Shown in pieces: positions 11,501-52,500 of a stretch of 64,000 nt of DNA. The translations under genes and the position numbers were made by a program. The notes beneath the pieces are model-generated. The model saw only the letters and a list, made by a program, of their open reading frames with translations. It made no database searches and was not told the origin of the DNA. This DNA comes from Omphiscola glabra (taxonomy: Eukaryota; Mollusca; Gastropoda; Lymnaeidae): contig OZ024808.1 in NCBI GenBank assembly GCA_964017045.1, positions 4,055,666 to 4,119,665 on the forward strand, read 5' to 3'. Position 1 is the first letter of the stretch. Every line of letters starts with the position of its first letter.

Positions 11501-11640
11501 ATGTGGGAGTGGCTGCTCCCCGCCCTGATGATCCTGTGCGGCTACACTCCCTGTGATGGAGCCCAGACACCAAACATTGTGGTCATCATGGCAGACGACT
11601 TGGGATACAACGACGTGGGATATCACGGCTCTGTCATCAA
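11501..11640 (+). CDS. Arylsulfatase exon 1: signal peptide and Asp-Asp metal site
   Basis: Starts ATG TGG GAG; hydrophobic run [12 protein letters not shown]. Then [16 protein letters not shown], the hallmark N-terminal sulfatase motif. Ends in phase 2 before gtaaac. An in-frame upstream open stretch begins at 11444 but adds no ATG in good context before the signal peptide. Confidence 0.9.
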
Positions 11641-14600
11641 GTAAACAACCAATCACTGCACTTCATACATTGCATTCACATAAACCAATCACTGCCCGCA
11701 TACATTGCATTCACATAAACCAATCACTGCACTTCATATATAACATTCACATAAACCAATCACTGCATGCATACATCACATTCATATAAACCAATCACTG
11801 CACTTCATATATCACATTCACATAAATCAATCATTGCACTTCATATATCACATTCACATAAACCAATCACTACACTTCATATATTACATTCACATAAACC
11901 AATCACTGCACTTCATATATCACATTCACATAAACCAATCACTGCACTTCATATATCACATTCACATAAACCAATCATTGCACTTCATATATCACATTCA
12001 CAAAAACCAATCACTGCACTCCATATATCACATTCACATAAACCAATCACTACACTTCATATATCACATTCACATAAAGCAATCTCTGCACTTTATACAT
12101 TATATTCACATAAAGCAATCATTGCACTTTATAAATTATATTCACATAAAGCAATCACTGCACTTTATACATTATATTCACATAAAGCAGTTAATGCACT
12201 TCATACAAAAAAGTAAATAGTGGCACAAGATATGATATGGCTTGAAATGAAGTCAAGACAGTCAAATGAACATTTCTGCTAGATGCCTGCTTGAGCAGGC
12301 AAGATAAAACAAGAAACAACAAAGATAATAGATATACATTCACATAAAGCAACCATTATCCTTCATACAAAAAGTAGACAACTCTCCATTGCACTTTATG
12401 GATTAAGTGTCACAGAATATAATCACCAAATAATGTATTTTCCAAGAAAGTCATCAGTGTAGTAAGGGGGCAGAAGGGGCGATATCCTCGAGCCATGCGT
12501 TTTTCTTTATATGGAGGGGCAGTATTTTCTGCCTGCTGCAGACTTTTTTTTTCATTGAAGGGTAGCAGCAAAAATCTTGACACGACCTGTTGGCATTAAC
12601 TCTGGGCTACGCCACTGATCAGTTAACAAAAAATATAATCTCATTAAAAAAATGTGTATAGTTTTATGTCACATAACTGATATCTGAACATGTGTCAATA
12701 AAGTTTCCATTTTTTTACTTAGGACCCCAAATATTGATCGACTGGCCAAAGAAGGTGTACGTCTAGAGAACTACTATGTCCAGCCTATCTGTACTCCCAG
12801 CAGAAGTCAGTTCATGTCTGGCCGTTACCAAATCCACACAGGTAAAGCTGATCCTTATGGTATAGAGACCAGCCACCTTCACACACAAGTAGATCAGTTT
12901 CTTGAACAATATGAGAACATTTGAGTTTGACAGTTCTCAAACCATGTTCAATATTCAGCAACACTACACTAAACATTTTACTAAAAATTAACATTTTACC
13001 ACTTTAAACATCAACAGTGCTAAACTCAACATTTTACCACTTTAAACGACAACAGTGCTAAACTAAACATTTTACCACTTTAAATGTCAACAGTGCTAAA
13101 CTAAACATTTTACCACCTTAAACGTCAACAGTGCTAAACTAAAAATTTTACCACTTTAAACGTCAACCTTGCTAAACTAAACATTTTACTAAAAAAATAA
13201 ACATTTTCACCTGTTCAAACTTCAACAGTACTAAAATAAACGTGACTCCAACACCCAAACTACAGGTCTGCAGCATGGTGTCATCCTACCTACTCAACCC
13301 TTTGCACTGCCATTGGACTCTCCCACTCTTGCTGATAAACTCAAGGAGGCAGGCTATTCCACCTACGGGGTGGGGAAATGGCATCTAGGATTTTATATGA
13401 AGAAATACCTACCAACACGGAGAGGCTTCGATAGGTTTTTTGGCTTTTACATGGGCAGTCAGGACCACTACACCCACAGGTAAGTTATATATATGGGCAG
13501 TCAGGGCCACTACACCCACAGGTAAGTTATATATATGGGCAGTCAGGGCCACTACACCCACAGGTAAGTTATATATATGGGCAGTGAGAACCACTGTATA
13601 CACAGGTAAGTTATATATATGGGCAGTCAGGACCACTACACCCACAGGTAAGTTACATATGGGCAGTCAGGACCACTACACCCACAGGTAAGTTATATAT
13701 ATGGGCAGTCAGGACCACTACACCCACAGGTAAGTTATATATATGGGCAGTCAGGGCAACTACACCCACAGGTAAGTTATATATATGGGCAGTCAGGACC
13801 ACTGTATCCACAGGTAAGATATATATATGGACAGTCAGGACCACTACACCCACAGGTAAGTTATATATATGGGCAGTGAGAACCACTGTATCCACAGGTA
13901 GGGTCTACATAAGGAATATCACGGCCATTACACCCTCCAGGTAATGTCTTTTTATGGTTCAGACAGTGATGACATTTGTGATAACTTCACAGCAATAAAC
14001 ATTCAAAGAAACACAGGCAAGTAAAGCTATAGGCACACTCATAGAGACAAATCAAAATAGTGGCTTTAGATTTCAAGTAAACTGATTTTGTTGTCTTGAC
14101 GCAGCCGATGCATCTACAACCGATGTGCTGTTGACCTTCACGATGACACCCCAACGACATTTAGAAACGTGTTCAACGAGAGCGGCTCATACTCCACACA
14201 CATGTACACACAGAAAGCAGTGGACCTCATCAACACACAGAACAAGAAGAAGCCATTTTTCATGTACCTGGCCTACCAGGCAGTGCATGCTCCATTACAG
14301 GTGAGAAATTCAGTTATTTTGTGCAGGCACACCTAACCACAAAAATGTTCTTACAGTAATATATACTAGGACTAAACAACACAAATAGACCAAATAGGTC
14401 CTTGAGAGTTATTAAATTATGAAATTATCAACATTACATTGAATAGGTCGTATCACACATCAAGGTATAAAAGAAATTATTACATAAACAGGGTTACATT
14501 TCATATGCCCCACCCTGGTAAAAAAGACATAACAAAGACAGTATAACATAATCAGCCTCACAACAAGGTACAACAGACATTACCAAAACATTATGCCATA

Positions 14601-49500: not shown

Positions 49501-52500
49501 TAAGCTTATTTATATAAATTTTTAGTTCCAGTTATTTTCTTTTATTTTGCCATTGGTATAGTTTTTACAAATTTCCTTGGATATGCTAAGAAGAGGCAAT
49601 GACTTTTCTGTCTACGATTTATTATGGATTTAAAAAGCTATTAACTTCGAATCTTAATTTTCAACTGAACAATGCATTTAGTTTTGTTCAGTTTTTATTA
49701 AATTATAAAATCTATGCCTAAATATAATGCTTATATTTTATTATCATTTCACAATAATCATTGCAATTCAATTCCTCCCTAAAGACCTGAGCTACCTACT
49801 GAAACCTTTATCCCTTTTCAACTTTAATTTACATCAACATGGCTGGAGATGCTTTGCAAATGTACACAACAATTGCAGTTGCAATAACCAAACTTGATTT
49901 TAAAACTGGACAATCCAGTTGATGAACAAAATTTCTAACACTCATTAAACTTCTCGCCCACAAGCCCTAATTGTGTGACCTGTCCCTGGATGAAAGGAGC
50001 TTATTCACTGGAATATGGAATTCATTAATTGTTTAATTTAGGCCAATATACAGACCTCTACAGTATAAGTTGCTCAGAGAAAAACTGAGTAAACTGTTGA
50101 GAGGCATATACAGTTCAATTTTATCATTGAATAAATGTAACACAACACAGAAATGGAACAACGTAATTGTAAATGAATTATTGGTTCTTGCAGATTCTAT
50201 GTCTAAAATAAAAGGCATAAATGGATGTGTTATTATTGTAGGTTAATCTGAATTAAACTACTATGCCTAGTTGATTGGATGGTGATATATTTAAAAGATA
50301 GCTTTGGAATAAATACCAATAATGGGGACAGCAATGTGGTTAGTAGAAGAAAACAACAGTGGCCTAGAGCCTTATTATTTCCCTTTAATTAATTATCTAG
50401 TGTTAGGCTAAAGGGCGTATTTCTTTAATCTGAAGAAAACAAAATGCATGTACTGAATAATTAAAAAGATCTGATAGCTTTAGTCTTTTCAATTCAGTAA
50501 AATTAATCAGGTGATGTTAACTTTTTTGATAATCCACATATTTTGGTTGCAGCAATATGAATGATTTTAACTCAGCATGCTGTTAAAGATGCATGCAATG
50601 GTTAAAATACAGAAATAAATTGCAAATTTTCATTAGGTTTATAAAGAGAGAGAAAATACAAGACTTAATGTGTTCCCTTTGTGAAATATGAGTTTTATGT
50701 AAAAAGAAATTGCCATATTTCATAATCGATATTTGTTTATTTGTACCCACCCAGTGTTATATATATTTTTTTTAAACAGGTCAAATTTATTTAAATCCAC
50801 TTACATCATGTGCTAATAATAAAAGTATTTCTCTCATGAAACACCATGTTTTCTTAAAATAAAAATCTAATTTTTTTTATGAATGCATTTTTAAAAGTGA
50901 CATTGTTAATACAAAGGTTGGTAAAATTGTTTGAAAATGTTTTGTGTTGTAAAAATGGACACCATTTATGGATTTAATAAAGCTTTTAACTTAAGTCTCA
51001 CAAAAAAAAAAAATATTCACATAGTAGCACAAATTTATTCCCTTGCCCCAGGTGAAAATAGCGGTATCTCTATGCCTGGATAGATTTTTCCCTTCTAACA
51101 TCCTATGTCAAATTGAAGCGAATTTCATGCCTGACTATTCAGTCTACTGGGAACCGCACTAAATAAATTTCATGCCTGACTTTCATTCTCCTGGGAACTG
51201 TACTAAAAAGCAGGTGCTTCAAATGACTTTATTTAAATTATTTGTCAAGCCGTTGATTCGGTACCTATAAAAAAATGATAAATATTGTTACGGAAAATAT
51301 TTCAATATCCTTTAAAAAATGACTTTTATTAGAACTGTATACAAGTAAATGTTCACACTCAATAGATACCTCATACATTAACTTGTGTGAATGTGTGCCC
51401 AAGATAACTTACCTCCATGGGGTAGATGAGAGTTTGAGAGATAGCACCAGCTGCAGACCCAGACAAAAGCCTTTCTATCACACCAATCTCTTTTCCAGAG
51501 TCTCCCTTAAACAATGCTTTGATCTGTAGGAGGAGAAATCATAATTTTTTAATTTTTAATGACATAATTCGGAATATTCAATGTCATTTTTCGTTCTTTT
51601 CTCAGGTGAACCAACCTGTACACATGTCATAAACTTTATAGCTGATTTACGTAAGTCACCTTCCTGTACACATGTCATAAACTTTATAGCTGATTTACCT
51701 AAGTCACCTACCTGTACACATGACATAAACTTTATAGCTGATTTACTCAACAGTTACCTACCTGTTCATAAGCCATAAACTTTATAGCAGACTCTGGTGC
51801 AATTTTGATTACATTAATCCCATTTCCTCTCCACAATGATTTGACTCCACCCTCCTCCAACATCTGCTTGAACCCTGATTTGATGGTCAGATTGTTCTTG
51901 CTGGACCCGTGAACCTGAAAATGGAGATTACACATTTTTCATGTGATACGGCAACATGAACACATCAACAGGAAATAAATGTCCCTTTCAGGCACTGATT
52001 GGTATGAAAGGTTTGATAAAAAAATAATTTATTGGATTTGGCATGAAAATAATAAAATCAATTGTGCCTTTAATACAAATTATTTTATCACTCAGCAATA
52101 AATGGTATGTATGAAAAAACTGTCAGGGTACTGACAGGGTAAAGGCTATCAACTGTTTTTCTAATGACAAGATCTATGCTGATAAATATTTTATCATTGA
52201 AATCACATTATAAGCAATAATAAAATCAATTGTGCCTTTAATACAAACTATTTTTATCACTCAGTAATAAATAGTATGTATGACAAACCTGTCAGGGTAC
52301 TGAATGGTAAATTCTATCAACTGTTTTTCTAATGACAAGATCTATGCTGATAAATATTTTATCATTGAAATCACATTATAAGCTTAAATTGAGAACCCCC
52401 CTTTGCTAGAACAAAGAAATTAATAATTTAAATGTAATAGTTTACTTTCAATTCTATAATAAATGCCACTTACCTGCAGTAAAACCTTTAACCTGTCAAG

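Follow-up and report, generated by a model that had tools for sequence, protein, structure and literature searches.

Minisatellite arrays at coding boundaries in three genes of the snail Omphiscola glabra

Genes and boundary arrays of the window

A 64,000-nucleotide stretch of the Omphiscola glabra genome (the window; positions 4,055,666 to 4,119,665 of OZ024808.1, which is contig 16 of a 745-Mb, 37-contig assembly, GCA_964017045.1) carries an arylsulfatase B-like gene and pieces of a ValRS gene and of a SCaMC gene, and minisatellite arrays lie at coding boundaries of all three. A preliminary description of this DNA had named eight such exon-edge arrays and suggested that some process initiates tandem expansion at splice junctions. 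To place exon edges independently of the arrays, we used a custom protein-to-genome aligner with human proteins as probes; because this aligner enforces GT-AG sites, 185 of the 185 introns used are GT-AG. Tandem Repeats Finder (TRF) returned 75 rows for the window and found the arrays where they had been described (Table 1).

The arylsulfatase model is open over 485 amino acids, with its ATG at 11501 and its stop codon at 20392-20394, and was adopted in place of a first alignment that began exon 9 elsewhere and inserted an extra short exon (19136-19174). Its protein is closest to those of Biomphalaria glabrata and Bulinus truncatus (71% identical), and human ARSB (1fsu) matches the model at 1.9e-138 with most of the length aligned. 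In the same assembly, the mitochondrial contig (13,783 bp) encodes a COX1 that is 96% identical to that of Galba and 95% to those of Austropeplea and Lymnaea stagnalis; together with the arylsulfatase matches this points to a lymnaeid (Gastropoda, Hygrophila) and led us to reject amphioxus as the host. The ValRS pieces match PF00133 and the SCaMC pieces PF00153 (Pfam). The three genes had been presented as unrelated, but they are not fully separate loci. The ValRS gene runs on past the start of the window, the exon ending at about 21945 being followed by one that starts about 371 bases before the window, and the arylsulfatase gene is wholly nested, antisense, in the resulting 22.3-kb ValRS intron (about -371 to 21944).

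Comparing the TRF arrays with the exon models revealed that the repeat unit holds exon bases (10-30 bp) at seven of the eight boundaries: four splice donors, two acceptors and one stop codon. Copies within these seven arrays match one another at 88-95%. The eighth array, at the exon 1 donor, holds no exonic base, and we rejected it as exon-seeded. The exon 7 array is separated from its exon by 287 bp of other sequence (17378-17664); this piece, whose translation may resemble the C-terminal tail of a non-LTR (long terminal repeat) retroelement, gave no Pfam match in two queries.

The array over the arylsulfatase stop codon is in frame, and its 36-bp unit preserves the frame throughout. Counted by eye from the translation, it repeats the C-terminus at full length another 21 times and ends in a partial copy; (S/I)AWGPWR-stop is exact in 14 of the 21. 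The WGPW of this C-terminus is common to all six aligned proteins, namely this arylsulfatase and five gastropod relatives.

One ValRS exon is flanked on both sides by arrays derived from it. Its first seven residues, which lie within the acceptor array, show no conservation with their human counterparts, so that this acceptor edge is supported by the AG site and the reading frame. The claim that the exonic parts encode conserved residues therefore stands for the arylsulfatase gene, the ValRS donor and SCaMC, but not for the ValRS acceptor stretch. Within the 26-mer array at the donor, GTAAGT, GTAAAT and GTAGGT variants are mixed in local runs (by eye), as expected for homogenising higher-order blocks.

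Table 1. Gene models and tandem arrays, in positions of the window.
Feature	Position	Strand	Description
Arylsulfatase B-like gene	11501..20394	+	9 coding exons, protein-to-genome alignment
Arylsulfatase exons 1-5	11501-11640, 12723-12841, 13266-13479, 14105-14300, 14685-14826	+	
Arylsulfatase exons 6-9	16377-16516, 17165-17367, 19684-19757, 20165-20394	+	
36-mer x15.6 array	11647..12205	+	begins 6 bp past exon 1 donor; zero exonic bases
42-mer x10.8 array over exon 3 donor (edge 13479)	13451..13900	+	29 of 42 bp exonic
64-mer x2.3 array over exon 5 acceptor (edge 14685)	14566..14714	+	at least 30 of 64 bp exonic, 88% matches
29-mer copy at exon 7 donor	17351..17377	+	17 bp exonic and 10 bp intronic, 27 of 27 identical
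29-mer x46.6 array, exon 7 donor unit	17665..18996	+	17 of 29 bp exonic; 40 decoy donors
36-mer x22.3 array over stop codon (20392-20394)	20370..21173	+	22 of 36 bp exonic
26-mer x73.8 array over ValRS donor (edge 28965)	27055..28974	-	10 of 26 bp exonic
ValRS coding exon with exon-derived arrays on both flanks	28965..29092	-	protein-to-genome alignment
64-mer x16 array over acceptor of the same ValRS exon (edge 29092)	29071..30080	-	22 of 64 bp exonic
48-mer x3.7 array over SCaMC donor (edge 51762)	51610..51788	-	27 of 48 bp exonic (SAIKFM...)

The exon had been proposed as the seed and the array as the product, and our results bear this out, since most of the repeated exonic stretches are conserved in relatives and the pattern recurs in genes outside the window. 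The reverse order, in which arrays came first and exon edges were later recruited from them, we consider extremely improbable. New introns arising from such repeats have been proposed in a passage of PMC3087553, and the ValRS acceptor stretch, not being conserved with human, would suit this order; the other repeated exonic stretches, by contrast, share residues, wholly or partly, with gastropod or human proteins, and those exons therefore predate their arrays. For exons with conserved repeated residues we thus reject an array-first origin, a rejection from which the ValRS acceptor is exempt. It is also very improbable that whole arrays or their copy numbers are assembly artefacts: an assembly may get the length of a tandem array wrong, but these copies carry point differences, and similar arrays occur again on contigs 9, 10 and 12.

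Frequency of arrays at exon edges

The window is an array-rich place. TRF arrays with a period of at least 10 take up 29% of its length and 39% of the 20 kb preceding it, as compared to 8.8% across the 234 kb of other loci taken, and intronic minisatellite arrays make up 16% of the intron bases in the 20 gene models built. To determine how often boundaries would be struck by chance, we used a null model in which a seed of unit length is placed randomly in the introns of its gene, with arrays shrunk to one unit and placements allowed to straddle the edges. A contiguous TRF array counted as a hit if it took in 6 bp or more of exon and likewise of intron; TRF rows with a period below 10 or a score below 50 were dropped, and one version also drops units longer than 100 bp. 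Not being contiguous, the exon 7 case does not qualify under this definition; it was added by hand, with its result reported separately.

Genes outside the window were selected for the protein family that they encode, irrespective of their repeats: seven CCT subunits, HSP60, eight sulfatase genes and the remainder of ValRS, together 17 gene models with 330 junctions and 70 arrays. Eight of 11 Cpn60/TCP1 match clusters were taken, and nine of the 12 sulfatase clusters outside the window, of which eight were used; locus S14b was excluded as a degenerate copy with an in-frame stop. Weak terminal exons were removed from S12a and S12c, and exon pairs split by tiny gaps were merged. The HSP60 model includes a spurious 1-bp exon, which, as the gene is without arrays, affects the junction count alone, and the IDS intron from 7634 to 7833 in L018 is doubtful. 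The rest of the ValRS gene contributes 18 arrays, with 2.12 hits expected and three seen.

In this outside sample 7 of 70 arrays span an edge, against 6.11 expected (P 0.41). Restricting the count to units of at most 100 bp gives 7 of 66 against 4.52 (P 0.16), and P runs from 0.10 to 0.41 under the contracted null with the 6-bp rule and from 0.04 to 0.35 under settings other than the main ones. Exact Poisson limits put the ratio of observed to expected hits under the main settings at about 0.5 to 3.2, so that the outside sample can be explained by chance, while a roughly two-fold preference for exon edges is possible. The seven arrays lie at the first modelled donor of CCT5 (39-mer x2), a donor of an arylsulfatase-like gene (41-mer x12, 98% matches), a GNS donor (47-mer), the first modelled donor of IDS (88-mer x2), and one acceptor and two donors of ValRS, two of these three at one exon. 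With the six in the window, five of them contiguous with the exon, the 20 gene models hold 13 splice-edge arrays.

We therefore favour, with a probability of roughly 60%, the reading that the seven window arrays are ordinary tandem duplications that straddle coding boundaries by chance in a minisatellite-rich genome, and that exon edges need not attract duplication. The preliminary description had itself cautioned that some overlap with junctions is expected by chance where arrays are dense, and this was apt; a null of random seeds can explain the outside sample.

Several results weigh against chance placement. Firstly, in the window 5 of 19 arrays span a boundary against about 1.5-1.74 expected (P about 0.01-0.023), or six against 1.74 with exon 7 added by hand (P 0.005), and P stays between 0.002 and 0.023 over all settings tried; this excess is post hoc, the region having been picked for showing such arrays. 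Secondly, some outside counts are themselves high: six strong arrays against 2.62 expected with introns uncontracted (P 0.041), seven hits against 3.36 with a 9-bp rule (P 0.045), and seven against 3.54 for units of at most 100 bp, uncontracted (P 0.059). Thirdly, pooling window and outside genes gives 12 of 89 arrays against 7.85 expected (P 0.08), 12 of 84 against 5.98 for units of at most 100 bp (P 0.014), 11 of 52 against 4.70 for strong arrays (score at least 150; P 0.005), and 11 of 52 against 3.54 for strong arrays with uncontracted introns (P 0.0005). Lastly, the exonic share of the unit in the 13 splice-edge arrays of the 20 gene models averages 0.45 with a standard deviation of 0.13, as compared to 0.21 for random placement (P 0.01); the junction thus sits nearer mid-unit than random placement predicts.

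These results speak for a less likely alternative, in which exon edges attract duplication about two-fold through R-loops, splicing-coupled pausing or AG|GT repeats acting as slippage points. Arrays within 10 bp of an exon point the same way in the window (6 against 2.39 expected, P 0.024) and in the pooled set (18 against 11.15, P 0.024), but not in the outside set alone (12 against 8.76, P 0.15), which, as given above, also shows no clear excess of edge-spanning arrays. Weighting the null by GC (guanine plus cytosine) content alters little, with seven outside hits against 4.69 expected (P 0.18) and 12 pooled hits against 6.17 (P 0.017). We rejected a GC preference as the source of the excess, as arrays lying wholly within introns do not exceed those introns in GC content (72 arrays, P 0.68).

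A genome-wide count also bears on this alternative. The strong-donor 9-mer CAGGTAAGT in triple tandem (spacers of 11-41) gave 224 + 328 = 552 matches, whereas the same pattern reversed, as a control, gave 693 + 369 = 1062, and hence no large excess of donors is apparent at the level of matches; the count is of matches rather than arrays and is dominated by long arrays. The first CAGGTAAGT tandem matches, those listed, are spread over numerous distinct arrays of contigs 1 and 2. Donor-bearing arrays are thus widespread in the genome, which does not imply a location at real exons. Attraction to junctions is further opposed by the stop-codon array, which has no need of splicing, and by the selection of the window for its arrays. 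A process that initiates expansion at splice junctions is consequently not established, with 7 of 70 outside arrays against 4.5-6.1 expected and no excess of the donor motif. In its wider form, that coding boundaries of both kinds, splice junctions and stop codons, are transcription- or splicing-linked hot spots of duplication in this snail, with about a two-fold effect, we regard the idea as rather unlikely.

Proposed tolerance of copies beyond the boundary

If chance straddling is the source of these arrays, the first duplication would arise by replication slippage or unequal exchange, as in any minisatellite, and what singles out the boundary would be tolerance. A duplication within an exon would alter the protein. 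One that spans a boundary may be tolerated where the boundary signal is read in order and still works from the copy nearest the exon, that is, the first donor, the last acceptor or the first stop codon. After a donor-spanning duplication, for example, the first donor would still function and everything beyond it would be intron. Purifying selection would then fix the exon-nearest copy, leaving the outer copies to multiply, drift and homogenise.

In the gene models one copy of the unit is kept in the exon and the others lie in the intron or past the stop codon. The earlier statement that copies extend away from the exon is thus true, and we attribute it to coding constraint, inward copies being ones that would change the protein. 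Reading in order predicts both observations, copies on the non-coding side (seen in window and outside models alike) and retained exon copies. It also predicts that donors outnumber acceptors and that stop codons can be affected. At an acceptor the last copy would be the one needed, and splicing would come upon the upstream copies earlier unless branch-point sequence is part of the unit, so that such duplications would be tolerated less; this would fit the donor bias of 10 to 3 (exon 7 counted by hand; P 0.09). A stop-codon case was seen once, and as the coding edge of that array is not a splice site, the read-in-order rule can account for it and a splicing-linked cause cannot.

The donor arrays are rich in decoys, which we defined as donors scoring above the 5th percentile of real ones. 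Each of the 10 donor arrays in the window and outside holds between 1 and 76; by score, 10 are predicted in the exon 3 array, six in the SCaMC array and 76 in the ValRS array, 34 of the last being identical to the true site. If reading continues beyond the true donor, a stop follows after 1 (exon 3), 10 (exon 7), 1 (ValRS) and 4 (SCaMC) codons, and the exon-nearest donor is therefore the one that gives the conserved protein. An intron with so many decoys, as in ValRS, might instead suggest that selection maintains the arrays, with rows of decoy sites or long introns regulating the splicing or expression of these genes. We consider this improbable, as unrelated genes are affected, 77 of the 89 arrays do not cross an exon edge, and the units of those that do vary by site.

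Relation to lancelet mirages and other repeats

Arrays of this kind have been named in another phylum. The "mirage" minisatellites of lancelets occur in Adh3, the globins BflGb6 and BflGb9, troponin C and PGBD5, with regular mRNA reported in passages of PMC3087553 and PMC3902484, and those passages describe, as we find here, a tandem unit across an exon-intron boundary, an effect on donors and acceptors, and decoy splice signals. In the snail the unit comprises exon and adjoining intron, donors and acceptors are both affected, and cryptic donor signals are present; on these features we class its splice-edge arrays as mirages. Their units are 25-88 bp long, while the same passages give 10-72 bp for lancelet Adh3 and 150-160 bp for the globins. 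The snail arrays differ from the lancelet cases in having a mollusc host and in that one array lies over a stop codon instead of a splice site. Length or somatic instability is reported for lancelets, whereas the snail arrays are known from the DNA of one assembly. The stop-codon array does not span an exon-intron boundary and so falls outside the definition of a mirage; it works like one and is an unusual variant.

Other repeats resemble these arrays in part. Passages of PMC2812944 concern human genes of segmental duplications in which internal tandem repeats lie at exon-intron boundaries, alike in minisatellite size and exon-edge location; those repeats frequently become part of the mRNA or create new introns, whereas in the snail models the additional copies stay out of the coding sequence. 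Intronic minisatellites of the ordinary kind share these unit sizes and arrays, but without exon bases. A 2026 earthworm paper (PMC12783039) reports intronic minisatellites in metallothionein genes and one clone with fourth-exon duplications absent from the transcript; the passages cited describe no units across an exon edge. In the open-licence literature, judged by titles and abstract openings, we found no report of exon-edge arrays in molluscs.

Printed cases so far, as far as the passages cited extend, come from lancelets and human duplicated genes, and the 13 splice-edge arrays in 20 snail gene models suggest that mirages are not peculiar to lancelets. The counting null makes attraction to junctions testable. 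Should boundaries prove to be hot spots, lancelets and molluscs would share an exon-edge mode of minisatellite birth. Boundary arrays are relevant, too, to the proposal that repeats of this kind give rise to new introns, and the ValRS donor with its 76 decoys and the stop codon with its 21 C-terminus copies provide natural tests of first-signal choice in splicing and translation.

Some further observations concern the repeats and loci around these genes. A unit of 23 bp, which reads CTCCCTAACAGGGTTTTGACCCT, its complement or something closely related, occurs at window positions 37485-37789 and 55194-55334 and at about 9563-9644 of locus L012, where it adjoins a CCTAAACCTAACC-like repeat; its array is perhaps carried by a dispersed element. 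At window positions 39346-40055, two open stretches in different frames resemble the C-terminal part of a LINE (long interspersed element) reverse transcriptase. Two similar extracellular-sulfatase loci lie on contig 14, one (L012 and L013) at 12.02 Mb and the other (L014 and L015) at 30.28 Mb; the latter has an in-frame stop and lacks part of the coding sequence, and arrays fill 7.6% of its 20 kb as compared to 29.6% at the former.

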